The notes below the pieces were generated by a model. That model was not told the DNA's origin. It did no database searches and was given only the letters and a program-made list of their open reading frames with translations. From [Phormidium] sp. LEGE 05292 (lineage in GTDB: Bacteria; Cyanobacteriota; Cyanobacteriia; Cyanobacteriales; Aerosakkonemataceae): DNA of 64,000 nucleotides. Positions 6,138 through 61,300 of the stretch are shown here, in pieces (the stretch's first letter is position 1; each line of letters begins with the position of its first letter). Location: NCBI RefSeq assembly GCF_015207735.1, contig NZ_JADEWG010000019.1:1-64000 (forward strand). Direction: 5' to 3'. The translations under genes were made by a program, and so were the position numbers.

Positions 6138-6487
6138 TTCTGATTATAAACCGCAGATGCACGTAGATAAACGCAGATAAAAACAGATAAATATCTGTGT
6201 GCATCGCATAAAATCAAGCTAAAATTATCTATTATCTAAATGTTTGCTACAGATGCTTGGGAGGGGCGGGTTTTGATTTCAATTTATTGCTGGGTATTGG
6301 GAACTTCTGGCTAAACCCGCCCCTACCTCATTTGTATCAATCATTTGTGTAAACGGTATTACTCGGTAGTGTTTCCTTGGTGGGATCGATCGCATCAAGC
6401 ATTACGGTTAAATGTGCCTGCTTCAGAAATTGCGATCGGAGTTCCTGTCTATTTAAAACCTGATTTACAATACACCAGTAGATTAAC
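6138..6487. other. Intergenic region with degenerate repeats
   Basis: This 350-bp gap contains AACCGCAGATGCACG followed by TAAACGCAGATAAAA (about 6149-6190), a repeat also found in frame inside metH. It also contains a palindromic element at 6262-6326 (separate entry). The stretch 6348-6500 reads open on the + strand for about 50 codons but has no start codon, and I do not recognise it. Confidence 0.5.
6262..6326. repeat. Palindromic repeat with GGGGCGGGTTT / AAACCCGCCCC ends (intergenic copy 1)
   Basis: The ends AGGGGCGGGTTTT and CTAAACCCGCCCCT are inverted copies of each other around a ~40-bp centre. The same ends occur at 20249-20316, 24042-24109 and 60377-60443. The centre of this copy differs from the other three, so it is the most divergent member. 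Confidence 0.7.
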
Positions 6488-20248: not shown

Positions 20249-20316
20249 GTAGGGGCGGGTTTAGCAGATAATTTCGTTATCACAGCAGAAGAATTAACTG
20301 CAAAACCCGCCCTTAC
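20249..20316. repeat. Palindromic repeat with GGGGCGGGTTT ends (intergenic copy 2)
   Basis: GTAGGGGCGGGTTTAGCAGA at the left and AAAACCCGCCCTTAC at the right are inverted. The flanks (GAGTTTTGAGTTT left, AGAGTTTTGAGTT right) are also shared with the copy at 24042-24109, which lies in reverse orientation inside a gene. The interior matches that copy over nearly its whole length (GCAGATAA, CAGCAGAAGA, TTAAC). The element here lies between two genes and is not translated. Confidence 0.85.
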
Positions 20317-20348: not shown

Positions 20349-21434
20349 TTAAATTACCTCCTCTGCTCCCCTGCTCCCCTGCTCCTCTGCCCCCCTGCTC
20401 CCCTGCTCCTCTTTGGGTTGCCATTGATTAAGTATATCCTTGACTAAAGCTTCCTTTAACCAAATTTGCACCACAATTAAAAGCGGAATTGCTAAAAACA
20501 AACCCAAAAACCCGAAAAAGCTAGAAAAAATTACCACTGATAAAATAGTAAATACTGGTAACAAAGACACCTGCTGCTTCATCACCATTGGCACCAAAAC
20601 CAAGCTTTCAAACTGCTGAATTACAACGTACAAAATTATTACTGCCACAGCTTTCCAAGGTGCATCGAGAAAAGCTAATAATGCAGGTGGAATTAAACTT
20701 AAAGTTGGGCCGACATTAGGAATAAACTCTAACAAACCTGCTAACAAAGCATTAACTAATGGCAATGGCACTTGTAAAATTAATAGCCCAATATAACTAA
20801 CTACGGCAATCACTAACATATCAAATAAAGTGCCTTTAATCCAGCCAACCAAAGAGCGTTCGCACTCCGAAAGAATCTCTTCAACTCGCCGCCGATAAAA
20901 TGCCGGAAACGCCAATACAAAAACTCGGCGATATGGCACAGGATTTACCAAAAACATGATAGTTACTACTAAAAATAGCAGAAAATTTAAGACAATACCC
21001 AAAGAATTATTAAAGAAAGCAAAAAAGTTACCAAATAGCCGAGTTGTCCAAGTTTGTAAATTTTGTGTAAAACCTTGTAAATTACGAATATTATCTACCA
21101 GTTGTTGAGGAACTACAGTTTGTATCCATTCAAACCAAAGACGCACTCTTTGTAATGATTGTGGTAACAAATAAACTAATTTTTGTCCTTGAGCAAAAAT
21201 TGGCGGAAATACCACCGCAAAAAAACCAACTATCAATAATAGTAAAAATATAATTGTTAGAGCAACAGCAATGCCTCGTTGCATCCGAGTTCGCTGAAGT
21301 AATTGCACCACTCTATTTAAAACTGTTGCTAAAACTACCGCACCAAACACCAATAAGACAATTTGGTTAATTTGCCACAATATATAAACAGAAAGAATAA
21401 AGGCAAGTACTCCTAACCATTGCCCAAATCGCAC
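20349..21434 (-). CDS. AI-2E family transporter (PerM-like membrane protein)
   Basis: A 361-residue polytopic membrane protein of the AI-2E/PerM family. It begins with a helix pair (LGVLAFILSVYILWQINQIVLLVFGAVV cut by the usual loop), has the long periplasmic loop, and ends with the conserved GLLEFIPNVGPTLSLIPPALLA and VFLSSFFGFLGLFLAIPL-like segments. Members are thought to export small molecules, but substrates are rarely proven. The last ~20 residues (PKEEQGSRGAEEQGSRGAEE) are not family sequence. They are a translation of the GAGCAGGGGAGCAGGGG repeat tract common in intergenic DNA, so the natural C-terminus was probably near LNQWQ. It is divergent from the next gene. Confidence 0.9.
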   Translation of the reverse strand: MRFGQWLGVLAFILSVYILWQINQIVLLVFGAVVLATVLNRVVQLLQRTRMQRGIAVALTIIFLLLLIVGFFAVVFPPIFAQGQKLVYLLPQSLQRVRLWFEWIQTVVPQQLVDNIRNLQGFTQNLQTWTTRLFGNFFAFFNNSLGIVLNFLLFLVVTIMFLVNPVPYRRVFVLAFPAFYRRRVEEILSECERSLVGWIKGTLFDMLVIAVVSYIGLLILQVPLPLVNALLAGLLEFIPNVGPTLSLIPPALLAFLDAPWKAVAVIILYVVIQQFESLVLVPMVMKQQVSLLPVFTILSVVIFSSFFGFLGLFLAIPLLIVVQIWLKEALVKDILNQWQPKEEQGSRGAEEQGSRGAEEVI

Positions 21435-21575: not shown

Positions 21576-24500
21576 ATGACTCCAACGGCTTCATCTAGGT
21601 TCTGGGAATTAATCGGTGAAGTATTTAGTTTTAATTCGGAAGCATTTGAAACTATTATTAATCTACATGAGGGAATGCTGCTAGCATTGCTGGTTGTGGT
21701 ATTAGCTGGTTTATCTTTGAGTGTGGGACAAAGTATTATCCTGTTCATTAATCGCGTTAAGCCAGCGCGTTTTGTTTTTAGCTTGTTGCTGAATGCAATT
21801 CTGTTTACCTTTGGCTTTGTATTTTTAGTATTTAGTACCTGGCTGATTTGTCTGTTACCTTGGTCGGTGAATGTTCCTTTTTGGCATCTGATGGAGGTGT
21901 TGGGGCTAAGTTACGCACCGCTGCTGTTCAGCTTTTTGGGGGCGTTACCCTACTTAGGGGTGCCGATTTTGAACTTACTATCGGTATGGCGGTTGCTGGC
22001 AATGATTGTTGGTTTTAGTGTTGTTGCTGGTGTGAGTGAGACGATCGCACTAGGTTATGTAGCATTTGGCTGGGTAGTTCTCCAACTATTAGAAAGTACC
22101 ATAGGACAACCGATCGCTAAATTAGGGAAAAAAGTTGCCGATAAAGTTGCCGGAGTTAAGTTAGCCACCAACAATCAAGAACTCCGGGAAATTGTCACAT
22201 CCGGCATCGGGCAAACCTCTTCACCAATAATTACCGCCAGCCAAACCAGAGTACCAGAAGTTAGACAGTTGTTCCAGGCATCCGGGCGATCGGCAACTGA
22301 TGCCGCCCAAGCAGTAGCCCAAACAGTAGCCAATCAACCAAGAACATCCACCGAACTGAAAGTCACTCACAGCATTAACACCTCCGATCCCATTGTTCAG
22401 CTAGAACAGGATAGCCGCAGTATTTCTGGAATTATCAAGTGGATCGTCAGTTTGCTAGCAATGGTAATCATTTTTATCATCGTAGCTGCTCTTTTGCGCC
22501 CGATTCGCGATGGGTTATTTGGCTGGTACGATCAATTACCTAGATTTTTGCGCTTAATTTTTAATTTATTTTGGATTGGTGTAGTGGCGATCGTCTTCGC
22601 TGGCTTACTCGCACCCCTAGAAACCCTTGGCTGGTGGGCAGGTTGGTATGGCGATGATTTAAATACAGTAGCAGCAGAGCAGGGGAGCAGGGGAGCAGCA
22701 AAGCAGGGGAGCACAGGAGCAGAGGAGCAAGAAAACTCCTTAACTCAACACTCAAAACTCTCTCGTTACATTGTTTACCTTGATGGCATTGGGCAATCTG
22801 GTGAAGAGTACACCCCCGATGTTGAGGACTTTCTCACTGCTTTCAAAGCTGTTTTACCCCAAGACATGGAACTAATCGAGGGATTAATGATGTACTCGGT
22901 ACTCAATAAACCCTTGAACGAAGACCGACCTTTAGCATTTTTGTGGCGACTGGCAGATAAAATGCGTTGGAGTAACCCAACGGCACTTTTGGGAATCATG
23001 CTCAATCTGCGAAATGTCTTTATTGTGGCAGTTTCCGCAGATCAACGTTATGGCCCAATTTATAATCAAGGCATTGCACAGGTACTTTACAACGGGCTAA
23101 TTGCACAGGGTTATCAACCAGGCAGCGGTGTGCCGATTACGCTCATTGGTTATAGTGGCGGTGGGCAAATGTCGGTAGCTGCTGGGTCATACTTAAAACG
23201 GGCAACAGGCGCACCGATCGATGTCATCTCTTTAGGTGGCGTAATGAGTGCCAACAACAACCTCCTTAAATTGCAACACCTCTACCATTTAGTCGGAGAA
23301 AAGGACTCTGTAGAACGCATTGGGCCAATTATGTTTCCCGGTCGTTGGAAAGTGTTCTTTTTATCTTACTGGAACCGCGCCAAACGCAAAGGGAAAATTA
23401 GTATCATTTCTTTGGGAGAAGTGGGACATCAAGTTCCAGGCGGGATGATGGACCCGAACGCATTTTTACCTGATGGACGTAGTTATTTACAGCAAACGAT
23501 CGAAGTAATTTTGCAAATTCTCGAAGGTAAAGCATTAAGGTCAGATCAGCAAATGAAGAGAAAAACCAGCAACTATGCACTCTATAAAGCAGCAGAGTTT
23601 ACCCGTCCCGATTATTATCCAGTTAATCAAACTGTAGATCCCACCCTATATCGCCCCATTGCTGATTGGATGGGTCGCTTGATTTTACCCAAACCGGAAC
23701 AAAGGCAGCGAGTGCGGGGAGTATTGCTGGAAATCTATCACGCACCTGATAATTATCAACACTTAGTTGGACAGGTGGTAAACTTGCGTTGGAGCAATGA
23801 GCCTTTTGTCCACAAGCTACTTGCAGCAGCTACCAGAGATGTTCACTTTAGCGCCGATGCTGAGTATCGCAGCAAATATGAGGGCTTAATTCATCCCGAT
23901 CGCTTAAACCACTGGCAACTAGTAGACCCTTTAGAATCTTTAGCTGGCTCTCATCCCACAGATGATGTAATTGTAATGCTCAATGAGCCAGTCAGGGTAG
24001 GAGAGCAGGAGAGCAGAGGGGCACAGGAGCAAAAAAACTCTGTACGGGCGGGTTTTGTTGTTAACTCTTCTGCTGAGAACACAGATTTATCTGCTAAACC
24101 CGCCCCTACAACTCAAAACTCTACCACTTCCCTCTACATCTCGACTACACCAATACAAATTACTGGGCGTTACTATGCACTGGTAAAATTTATCAAACCG
24201 ATCGCTGGTACAGATAAATTCCGAGTTTGGCATTTCAATAAAGCAACGCGAAAGTTTGATGGAGTTGAAGAAATTGTCAGAATGCCAGAGGTAAAGGCAA
24301 ATGCTAATGGTTGTTTTCCTTCCACTAGTCGCAGTATTGAGAGGGTTTCACTCAATGAACAAGGTTGGTATATTTATGGTGCCAAAGATAAGTCAGGAAC
24401 TTTTGTCGTTGAGTCTCTTGCTCCCCGTGCTTTGTTGGAACTGCATCCTCAAAAGATAATTTTTGGACGCAAACTAGGAGAAAATTATATCCGCAAAGGT

Positions 24501-25448
24501 GCTTGGGCAGATGCAGCAAAAAAGAAAGGTAGAATTACTTCCGTCTTGCTCAGTCCTCGTCGGGAGGGAATGGAAGAAGCGATCGCACAATGGCAAGAAA
24601 ACGACCTCGCTTTAGTTATTCACACCTACGGCGGTATCGGTGGGAAAAAGAAAGAACCAGCCGCTAGCACTCCCATTTTCTTTGGACATTTTGCTTATGG
24701 TGTAGCCCAAGTAATTTGGGAACCTCTAGCTGATGAATTAAGATTTGATATTCGCTATCACCAGGTTTATACTCATAACACAGATGGTATTATCGCCGGA
24801 ACTTTGCATTGGTCACGTTACATGGGCGATCGACAATTTGGTTGGGCAGGTTTACGTCCAGTGTGCGATATGTTGATTAAACTCGATTCCTTTACAGGTT
24901 TCTACAACCTTGATGGTACCCAGGTTTCTCCCTTAATACAAATGTTGCGTCAACTGCAAGTCATGACTGCTCGTTATCGCATCGGAGATGGCACCGGAGG
25001 AACTTTCGTTGGCCCTGCTAACAACTGCGCCCAAGACTCCAATCGAGCATTATTTGCCAGTCTGACGCAAACAACCAAATTTTTGCAAGCTAACCCGGAA
25101 ATAGTCAATAAATTACTAGAACCTAATCCAAAACAAGAGCAACGCTTCTGGCAACTCAAACACTTAAAGAAAGAACTGCAACAAGAACTGCAACCTTGTG
25201 GTGGGCCTCGTCCTGATTGGGAAAATAATGAGTATAATTTGGGCAGTACTTTGGAAGATAATCCCATACAAAACTTGTTAATGGGTTTAGCCAGTTGGCG
25301 CACCCTTCTTCCCCGAATTGCTAGTGATGCGATCGCCCAAATTTTTCTCAAATATGGGGCAACAATCTGGGTTTTACGCACTAATCAAATCGGTGGTTAC
25401 GATCCTGATATCGAACCGATCGCACCTACGAGTTTTTCCCTGTTTTGA
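21576..25448 (+). CDS. Large membrane-anchored alpha/beta-hydrolase-like protein of unknown function
   Basis: A 1290-residue protein. Residues 25-170 contain several membrane helices, and a second group lies at about 285-365. The soluble part from ~395 onward opens IVYLDGIGQSGEEYTPDVED and contains LIGYSGGGQMSVAAGSYL, a nucleophile-elbow GxSxG motif, then GEKDSVERIGP and GEVGHQVPG, giving a plausible Ser/Asp/His set. Further C-terminal regions include GHFAYGVAQVIWEPLADELRFD and a segment with FGWAGLRPVCDM, with no family I recognise. Two low-complexity insertions are visible. One at about residues 367-393 contains EQGSRGAAKQGSTGAEEQ. The other at about 809-850 contains a palindromic element. 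A lipase/peptidase role is only inference. RBS GAAGGA precedes ATG 21576. Confidence 0.8.
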   Translation: MTPTASSRFWELIGEVFSFNSEAFETIINLHEGMLLALLVVVLAGLSLSVGQSIILFINRVKPARFVFSLLLNAILFTFGFVFLVFSTWLICLLPWSVNVPFWHLMEVLGLSYAPLLFSFLGALPYLGVPILNLLSVWRLLAMIVGFSVVAGVSETIALGYVAFGWVVLQLLESTIGQPIAKLGKKVADKVAGVKLATNNQELREIVTSGIGQTSSPIITASQTRVPEVRQLFQASGRSATDAAQAVAQTVANQPRTSTELKVTHSINTSDPIVQLEQDSRSISGIIKWIVSLLAMVIIFIIVAALLRPIRDGLFGWYDQLPRFLRLIFNLFWIGVVAIVFAGLLAPLETLGWWAGWYGDDLNTVAAEQGSRGAAKQGSTGAEEQENSLTQHSKLSRYIVYLDGIGQSGEEYTPDVEDFLTAFKAVLPQDMELIEGLMMYSVLNKPLNEDRPLAFLWRLADKMRWSNPTALLGIMLNLRNVFIVAVSADQRYGPIYNQGIAQVLYNGLIAQGYQPGSGVPITLIGYSGGGQMSVAAGSYLKRATGAPIDVISLGGVMSANNNLLKLQHLYHLVGEKDSVERIGPIMFPGRWKVFFLSYWNRAKRKGKISIISLGEVGHQVPGGMMDPNAFLPDGRSYLQQTIEVILQILEGKALRSDQQMKRKTSNYALYKAAEFTRPDYYPVNQTVDPTLYRPIADWMGRLILPKPEQRQRVRGVLLEIYHAPDNYQHLVGQVVNLRWSNEPFVHKLLAAATRDVHFSADAEYRSKYEGLIHPDRLNHWQLVDPLESLAGSHPTDDVIVMLNEPVRVGEQESRGAQEQKNSVRAGFVVNSSAENTDLSAKPAPTTQNSTTSLYISTTPIQITGRYYALVKFIKPIAGTDKFRVWHFNKATRKFDGVEEIVRMPEVKANANGCFPSTSRSIERVSLNEQGWYIYGAKDKSGTFVVESLAPRALLELHPQKIIFGRKLGENYIRKGAWADAAKKKGRITSVLLSPRREGMEEAIAQWQENDLALVIHTYGGIGGKKKEPAASTPIFFGHFAYGVAQVIWEPLADELRFDIRYHQVYTHNTDGIIAGTLHWSRYMGDRQFGWAGLRPVCDMLIKLDSFTGFYNLDGTQVSPLIQMLRQLQVMTARYRIGDGTGGTFVGPANNCAQDSNRALFASLTQTTKFLQANPEIVNKLLEPNPKQEQRFWQLKHLKKELQQELQPCGGPRPDWENNEYNLGSTLEDNPIQNLLMGLASWRTLLPRIASDAIAQIFLKYGATIWVLRTNQIGGYDPDIEPIAPTSFSLF
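24042..24109. repeat. Palindromic repeat with GGGCGGGTTT ends inside the 1290-aa hydrolase gene
   Basis: This is the reverse-orientation counterpart of 20249-20316, including its GAGTTTTGAGTT-type flanks. Here it is read in frame within the coding sequence, giving a peptide including VVNSSAENTDLSAKPAP. It lies immediately after a second repeat tract translated as EQESRGAQEQ. No frameshift or stop results. Confidence 0.9.
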
Positions 25449-59197: not shown

Positions 59198-61300
59198 TTA
59201 TTTGAGTTTTTCTAAAGCTATTTGTGCAGCTTCTACTAAAGTAAAGTAAGGCGGTTGTAATATATTGATTTCCGCAGCATCTTCACGAGTTTTACCTAAC
59301 AAACCTATTGTTTTTCCTAAAGGAACGGCTAAAACTTTGCCTTCAGCATTTTTAATCCTTAATTCTGTTAAGGAATCATTTGGATATAACCCGCAAGTGT
59401 AACGCTTTTGATTGTGGTAAAACTCGGCTTTTAACGGAATATTTCTGGCTGTGAAGGTTTGCCAAGACAATGGTTTTGCTTGTCTGACACCTAATAATTC
59501 TAATTCTACAGTTTTGCTGCCGTTAAAATTGTTTTCTCTGAGTCGATAGGCTAGATCAACTCGGTTTGGCAGGGGAAAGTAGTCGCGCCAACGCCATGCG
59601 ATCGCTTTAATTTTATCCGGTGAGCTAAACTGAGAAATAGTTAGCTTCAAATGACCTTTACCCACTATTTGCTGTTCCACAATTCGCGCATCAGACATCC
59701 AAAAAACTGGTGCTGAATTCTCAATTCCACAAGGTTGTAAAGCTTGGATTTGTTGATATAATTCTAAATTAATATCGGTAATTTCGGCTTTAGCATCAAT
59801 TTTTAATAAAGGTTTGAGGTGTTCTGGTTGGAGTAATTTATGAGCAAATTTACTCAGTCTACGGCGAAATTCTGTTAAGTTTTCCGCAGGTAAAGAAAAG
59901 CCGCCTGCTGCTTTATGTCCGCCGAATTTTCCTAGTAAATCTTCACAAGATAACAAGGCTTCAAACACATCAAATTCGGGAATTCCCCTAGCTGAACCGC
60001 GAATGCGATCGCTATCTTCCTCTTCATAAGTCCCAATAAAAACCGGAACTCCGTAGCGTTCCACTAAGCGAGATGCGACAATTCCAATTACGCCATGATG
60101 CCAATTTGGTTGGACGACAACTAAAACTCGTTCTTGTTGTAAATCGATTTGGCTTTGTTCGCACCATGCGATCGCTTCTTGTTCAATCTCCTCGCAAAGC
60201 ATCTGACGCTTTTGATTAATTTGTTCGCACTGCATAGCTCTTTTTAAAGCTACACCCATATTATCAGTTGTTAACAGTTCAATAACAATTTGTGGATCGG
60301 AAATTCTCCCAATGGCGTTGATTCTTGGCCCAAGTCTAAAACCAATATCTTCTGGGTTTAGAGATTTTTGAGTTTTAGGGGTGGGTTTTGTAGTCAATCC
60401 TTCTGTTGCGATCGCAGAATTATCTACTAAACTCGCCCTTACAGAATTTTTCAATAATGAATTGGAACTACTTTCTACGCCAGAAATTTGAATTAATGCT
60501 TGTACTCCGGCTAATTGGGAGTAAGGTAAGAGTTGTAAACCGCGTTTTACCCAACGTCGATTTACTCCAGTTAATGGTGCTAAATCGGCAATTGTTCCCA
60601 ATGTGAATAACTCTAACATTGGTTTAATTAAACCTTTAGCAAGCCCAAGTTTTTGCGCTAAACAAACTGCTAAAATATAAGCAACTCCTACACCAGCAAT
60701 TCCTCGATAAGGTGAAGTTTCTCGAATTAATTTGGGGTTAAGAATTGCATTGGCTGGTGGTAATTTGGGTGGGATATCGTGATGATCGGTAACGATGACT
60801 TGTAAACCTAATTCTCTGGCTCTTAGAATTGGTTCAAATGCGGCAATGCCGTTATCTACTGTTAAAATTAGTTGTACACCTTCTGTATGGAATTCTTCGA
60901 TAATTCGGCAATTAATTCCATATCCTTCAGTCATGCGACTGGGAATGGCATAATCTACATCAGCGCCTAAACTACGAAGCGATCGCAACAACAAAGCAGT
61001 ACTCGTCATGCCATCAGCATCATAATCTCCACAAATGGCAATTTTGCCTTGGGAAGCGATCGCATTTTCCAACAATTCCACACTAATTCCCAAGTCGGGA
61101 AATTCATCTAAAGGATCGGGTAGAAATTGAGTTTCTGGCTCTAAAAACTCTCTGACTTGGGTTGGAGTTTCCATTCCTCGATTGATTAACACCTGCGCTA
61201 ATAAAGGAGAAAGATGGAACTTTTCGGCTAATTCTTTAGCTTGTTGCGGTTTTTCTGGGTAAAACTCCCAACGTTGCAAAGGTAATCGATCGTTAGGCAT
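59198..61300 (-). CDS. recJ: Single-stranded-DNA-specific exonuclease RecJ, with an in-frame palindromic insertion
   Basis: 5'-to-3' exonuclease of recombination and repair. The 700-residue protein has the DHH family motifs AICGDYDADGMTSTAL, TVDNGIAAF, VIVTDHHDIPP and the GKFGGHKAAGGFSLPA DHHA1 region, followed by an OB-like C-terminal part. Residues ~280-312 contain SSNSLLKNSVR and VDNSAIATEGLTTKPTP, an insertion from a palindromic repeat (60377-60443), absent from ordinary RecJ. It begins directly after the stop of the upstream gene (TAAATG), indicating coupling with the secreted protein gene. Confidence 0.94.
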   Translation of the reverse strand: MPNDRLPLQRWEFYPEKPQQAKELAEKFHLSPLLAQVLINRGMETPTQVREFLEPETQFLPDPLDEFPDLGISVELLENAIASQGKIAICGDYDADGMTSTALLLRSLRSLGADVDYAIPSRMTEGYGINCRIIEEFHTEGVQLILTVDNGIAAFEPILRARELGLQVIVTDHHDIPPKLPPANAILNPKLIRETSPYRGIAGVGVAYILAVCLAQKLGLAKGLIKPMLELFTLGTIADLAPLTGVNRRWVKRGLQLLPYSQLAGVQALIQISGVESSSNSLLKNSVRASLVDNSAIATEGLTTKPTPKTQKSLNPEDIGFRLGPRINAIGRISDPQIVIELLTTDNMGVALKRAMQCEQINQKRQMLCEEIEQEAIAWCEQSQIDLQQERVLVVVQPNWHHGVIGIVASRLVERYGVPVFIGTYEEEDSDRIRGSARGIPEFDVFEALLSCEDLLGKFGGHKAAGGFSLPAENLTEFRRRLSKFAHKLLQPEHLKPLLKIDAKAEITDINLELYQQIQALQPCGIENSAPVFWMSDARIVEQQIVGKGHLKLTISQFSSPDKIKAIAWRWRDYFPLPNRVDLAYRLRENNFNGSKTVELELLGVRQAKPLSWQTFTARNIPLKAEFYHNQKRYTCGLYPNDSLTELRIKNAEGKVLAVPLGKTIGLLGKTREDAAEINILQPPYFTLVEAAQIALEKLK
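60377..60443. repeat. Palindromic repeat with GGGGTGGGTTT ends inside recJ
   Basis: The + strand TAGGGGTGGGTTTTGTAGTC ... TCTACTAAACTCGCCCTTAC shares ends and flanks (TTTTGAGTTT; ACAGAATTTTT) with the intergenic copy 20249-20316. Read on the - strand as recJ codons it gives VDNSAIATEGLTTKPTP, the same phase and orientation as in the 1290-residue protein gene. Divergent from the other copies, so older. Confidence 0.85.

Follow-up and report, generated by a model that had tools for sequence, protein, structure and literature searches.

In-frame palindromic repeats are already known in Rickettsia and in other bacteria (PMC10969869, PMC2229807). The REPINs described by Bertels and Rainey (2011; PMC3116915) include Nostoc punctiforme, and Di Nocera et al. 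(2013; PMC3733652) list the cyanobacterial families GTAG-12/15/16, which were compared with the element studied here through their text description. The latter authors also report intragenic GTAG REPs in several bacteria, several of them in DNA-repair genes; the text of their article, in its available parts, names no intragenic GTAG REP from cyanobacteria.

An initial annotation of the window (the whole stretch of 64,000 nucleotides analyzed here, from [Phormidium] sp. LEGE 05292) placed four copies of a palindromic repeat in it. We recovered all four, and they are far above chance: 84 exact-arm copies were found in the genome and none with a reversed-pattern control. The annotated division into two coding copies and two copies between genes also stands. 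The relevant features are as follows.

6260-6326, no strand assigned: copy between genes, from the subfamily with a GCCAAAAG...ATTGAAAT interior
20249-20316, no strand assigned: intergenic copy within a (GAGTTTT)n heptamer array
21576-25448, plus strand: host gene of the 24042 copy, 1290 aa, with no Pfam or NCBIfam match
24042-24109, plus strand: copy in frame in the 1290-aa ORF, reversed with respect to its gene and read in phase GTA CGG GCG GGT
59198-61300, minus strand: recJ, single-stranded-DNA-specific exonuclease, intact ORF of 700 aa (DHH 86-236, DHHA1 391-487, OB 501-602)
60368-60472, minus strand: RecJ residues 277-311, the length-variable loop that holds the insert, predicted disordered (pLDDT < 50)
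60375-60442, minus strand: recJ copy, 68 bp, core 60379-60438, TTTAG-first relative to recJ, phase GTA AGG GCG AGT, encoding ~22 aa (V-RASLVDNSAIATEGLTTKPTP)

The 20249 copy is overlapped by a 105-aa ORF, which is probably spurious. A membrane-protein-like ORF at 20349-21434 (minus strand) has a C-terminal tail, PKEEQGSRGAEEQGSRGAEEVI, built of a GGAGCAGGGG-type tandem repeat.

Structure and census of the repeat

The repeat is a genome-wide family of imperfect palindromes of 66-68 bp, GTAG-GGGCGGGTTT..40 bp..AAACCCGCCC-YTAC, with about 143 copies in the 7.5-Mb draft genome and no coding capacity of its own. The element has arms of ~14 bp, and its core of 59-61 bp (GGGCGGGTTTAG...CAAAACCCGCCC) is extended by 4 bases at either end. 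Of 133 copies, 108 start with GTAG on the left; on the right, 28 end in CTAC and 57 in CTAC or TTAC. The interiors fall into subfamilies, including the one seen at 6260. An arm variant, GGGCGGGTGAGAGCAG replacing GGGCGGGTTTAGCAG, recurs at unrelated places in this genome (G000 C262, C336:49945, C311, C269 and C187).

When copies were folded as single strands they formed hairpins with z values of -3.6 to -6.9. The two arms are inverted and the pair is capable of forming a hairpin, as in a REPIN; direct inspection of the arm GTAGGGGCGGGTTT revealed no self-complementarity, and folding occurs only as an arm pair. Because a single arm is not itself palindromic, we use the label REPIN-like and do not call the element a classical REPIN. 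With the GTAG superfamily it shares the terminal GTAG in most copies; its loop of ~40 bp differs from the stem-loop of that superfamily, which has a stem of 6-13 bp and mostly a loop of 2-15 bp. An Rfam search of the window gave no match to the element above the gathering score, the sole match being a tRNA.

The covariance-model census proposed in the initial annotation produced 147 matches in the genome, which correspond to 143 distinct copies. A candidate spanning ORF exists at 17 of the 137 copies examined; therefore at least about 88% of the copies lie outside genes. About 11 of the 137 are internal to genes and in frame, their host genes being backed by domains on either side or by the sister species (G001). 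These 11 are located in RecJ, the 24042 gene, a hydantoinase, a DUF2344/radical-SAM protein, NRPS condensation (2) and adenylation (3) sequences, a TPR-CHAT protein and a RAYT. This is a short list, in which the NRPS cases may all stem from a single event. Three further copies are close to the N-termini of MFS, CHAT and DALR proteins. ORFs at C277, C228 and C204 were discarded as hosts because they are unsupported, and a G001 match at C3:192615, in the sister species, seems to resemble the arms by chance. In the NRPS adenylation sequences the element stands before LYKTGD, at the same place in L084 (C88), L109, L116 and L301, in two species and two frames, as could arise by module copying or at a hotspot.

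Of 130 copies, 36 have the heptamer GAGTTTT/AAAACTC no more than 40 bp away, compared with 2.5% of control windows. Exact-arm copies are present in 28 of 386 cyanobacterial genomes, representing 18 genera.

The element and one group of RAYTs

The genome contains a RAYT (G000:C258; L089:2260-2850) with two copies of the element directly upstream and one in frame just after its HuH motif, a position at which its close relatives have a short loop. Among the NCBIfam models, that of the REP-associated tyrosine transposase fits it best, with 71.4 bits, below the 80-bit cut-off. Other RAYTs (L272, L383, L384 and L385) have long in-frame loops after the HuH motif that are built of repeats such as VGADQCVCPNPP; it is as if repeats gathered at this position.

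Relatives of the RAYT occur in 52 of 120 genomes of the order. Among the closer ones (L367-L379), all 13 loci have arms no more than 400 bp from the RAYT ORF; the regions for the closer, split RAYT matches were picked by protein match, except for G222:C36, which was noticed for its element. No arms occur near L380-L386 and the other sampled RAYT branches, with the exception of L272. If the presence of arms is treated as a label on the RAYT tree, it needs 2 changes, compared with a mean of 13.5 after shuffling, and none of 500 shuffles was as low; the RAYT group has a support of 87/80, which means that it is poorly resolved. One RAYT group is flanked by the element in about ten other cyanobacterial genera, and in L373, L374, L377 and L378 the GTAG provides the stop codon of the RAYT. 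G003 and G004, which are rich in copies, gave no RAYT match at the cut-off used. An intact RAYT in L017 was dropped as a partner because arms are absent nearby.

We consider it likely that the repeat is a miniature element of filamentous cyanobacteria with inverted repeats, REPIN-like and tagged with GTAG, and that the coding copies are the survivors of a filter. A RAYT of the associated group, we infer, would mobilize the element in trans as single-stranded DNA. Most copies are intergenic, and tandem arrays of the heptamer often surround them. Copies inside genes are rare and would survive where the net length change keeps the frame, the frame is free of stops and the site is a tolerant surface loop; with the TAG derived from GTAG and an internal TAA, most survivors read V-(G/R)-A-G...K-P-A-P-T in either orientation.

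Two inverted ends, a length of ~67 bp, the non-coding nature and arms that are not self-complementary would also suit a MITE that belongs to an ordinary DDE-type insertion sequence, is unrelated to RAYTs and has terminal inverted repeats of ~14 bp. This origin is nevertheless improbable in view of the polarity of the GTAG end and the clustering of the element beside one RAYT group in several genera. No target-site duplication was seen at the empty sites compared, but these are too rearranged to carry weight on this point: none was a precise, rearrangement-free empty site, and most of them are repeat arrays.

Copies within coding genes

The RecJ insert is flanked by residues 276 and 313 and belongs to neither the DHH nor the DHHA1 domain. 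The concern about the fixed core motifs of the enzyme is hence not supported; the insert is in a variable loop, and the predicted model (mean pLDDT 86.2) is confident apart from residues 277-311. The loop has 48 aa here, 15-16 aa in most cyanobacteria and about one residue in a solved RecJ; it is longer in several relatives (37-64 aa), with 37 aa in the nearest genera. The expectation of a clean insertion of ~22 residues therefore holds against the 16-aa baseline and not against the nearest genera (37 versus 48 aa). The repeat itself is in frame in RecJ, as annotated, and it is absent from the RecJ of most other cyanobacteria. The recJ insert would give a floppy, disordered loop between DHH and DHHA1, which is probably why it has persisted, and the enzyme most likely still works. 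RecJ is the sole repair gene among the hosts found here, and a preference of the insertions for repair genes was rejected.

In relatives the same loop holds other sequence, in several genera the heptamer-like NPKSKIQN; in G007 and G008 it holds a related GTAGGGGCGGG element in another reading frame (CRGGLY). A second site in RecJ, before IKAIAWRW, contains copies in G004/G005 (GTA frame) and in G007 (RGG frame), and recJ has been struck at two sites in several genera. By its RecJ the genome stands near Argonema (73% identity; NCBI Oscillatoriales). The RecJ loop of G003, from the same family, is identical to that of L157, and G003 is for this reason probably Argonema antarcticum.

Both coding copies in the window share one phase, as the initial annotation had claimed (GTA-AGG-GCG-AGT in recJ, GTA-CGG-GCG-GGT in the 24042 gene). 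The claim that they also share an orientation was wrong: the interior of the element is asymmetric, the recJ copy is TTTAG-first and the 24042 copy the reverse, each relative to its own gene, and their similar translations are due solely to the near-palindromic sequence of the element. The GTAG end is a TAG stop in one frame and the main interior has a TAA, which usually shuts a second frame; one phase is preferred because the stop codons leave the V-(G/R)-A-G frame open. Summed over all copies, the open frame slots are 183 GTA, 87 RGG and 33 TAG. All 11 gene-internal copies use the GTA frame, in both orientations, and the family includes four coding cases in the RGG frame (among them one in a CHAT-domain protein of this genome, one in a sister-species NRPS and one in the RecJ of another genus). 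Hence the GTA phase is strongly preferred, as suggested, but it is not the only one tolerated; the phases are not random over all frames and track the stop-free ones. A phase bias beyond the open frames was rejected, since about 12-13 GTA, 4 RGG and 0 TAG independent cases show no excess over the 183:87:33 slots. On these sequence counts the stop codons account for the phase and no further bias is needed. An orientation bias (10 versus 4 coding copies) is not meaningful given the repeated NRPS modules.

The insertions were also compared with relatives. In the hydantoinase, a stretch of 28 aa in G002-G006 has an additional 43 aa of repeats here; the G001 gene has other heptamer repeats and lacks the element. 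The DUF2344 copy, with a net gain of 54 nt, is absent from nine other genomes, and the G001 gene has its own in-frame copy at another position. Judged by sequence comparison, both insertions are clear against the relatives. The hydantoinase loop in L323 and L324 (G009, G008) contains other in-frame repeats, of the ETPIPQN and CGVGILPAR types.

The sister species G001 has the 24042 copy at the identical site and in the same frame, and it has kept an insert-bearing RecJ (88% identity). Its recJ copy occupies the same site as that of G000 and is opposite to it in orientation. Both recJ copies share a rare ACTAC variant (2 of 137 copies in the own genome), and as a match to the G001 copy the G000 recJ copy ranks only 8th best among all G000 copies. 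The flip may reflect replacement or re-insertion instead of inversion in place. It is doubtful that the interior can invert between its arms inside a coding gene and so create two alternative in-frame loops; if this were true, the RAYT that contains a copy of its repeat in frame would be another such self-reference.

The fact that copies are retained in frame in recJ and the 24042 gene of two species, together with the two sites struck in recJ in several genera, could mean that coding copies are kept for a function of the encoded peptide, e.g. in the regulation of RecJ. A dN/dS of 0.39 over the 23 codons of the 24042 copy points the same way, but this value is based on 9 changes only and exceeds that of the rest of the gene (0.235). 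Since the RecJ loop is also predicted to be disordered, varies freely in length and sequence and holds other repeats elsewhere, and since the phase is accounted for by stops, such a function is very improbable. That the RecJ segment is an ancestral feature of the enzyme and the source of the repeat is hardly credible: several relatives do have a long loop, but their sequence there is unrelated, and the loop has 15-16 aa in most cyanobacteria and about one residue in the solved structure.

Comparison with known systems

The REPIN-like element resembles the RAYT-associated REPINs of Bertels and Rainey (2011, PMC3116915) in its inverted doublet hairpin, high copy number, mostly extragenic location and adjacency to RAYTs; it differs in that its arms are not palindromic singly and in that several copies are translated. 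GTAG REPs, as described in the available parts of Di Nocera et al. (2013, PMC3733652), share the GTAG end, the possible TAG stop, intragenic copies and REPtrons, whereas their loops have 2-15 bp compared with ~40 bp here. The SDR of Elhai et al. (2008), to judge from its title and from text that cites it, are likewise very small mobile repeats in cyanobacteria. That paper may already list the sequence; a description of translated copies of the element was not found in the literature consulted.

Our analysis ties a cyanobacterial repeat to one RAYT group, and the comparison with relatives shows that stop codons within the repeat determine its reading phase. The recurrent insertions into the RecJ and hydantoinase loops are natural test cases for mobile DNA that lengthens conserved enzymes. 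The parallel to the Rickettsia palindromic elements (PMC10969869, PMC2229807) drawn in the initial annotation is valid for the outcome, namely palindromic repeats that have entered conserved enzymes in frame and are tolerated there. It does not extend to length, sequence or host: those elements have 105-150 bp and another sequence and occur in Rickettsia only, while the element described here has 66-68 bp and occurs in a cyanobacterium. The element is a further example of a known phenomenon, in-frame palindromic repeats; with it, the few bacteria whose mobile palindromic repeats have been turned into protein gain a further phylum.
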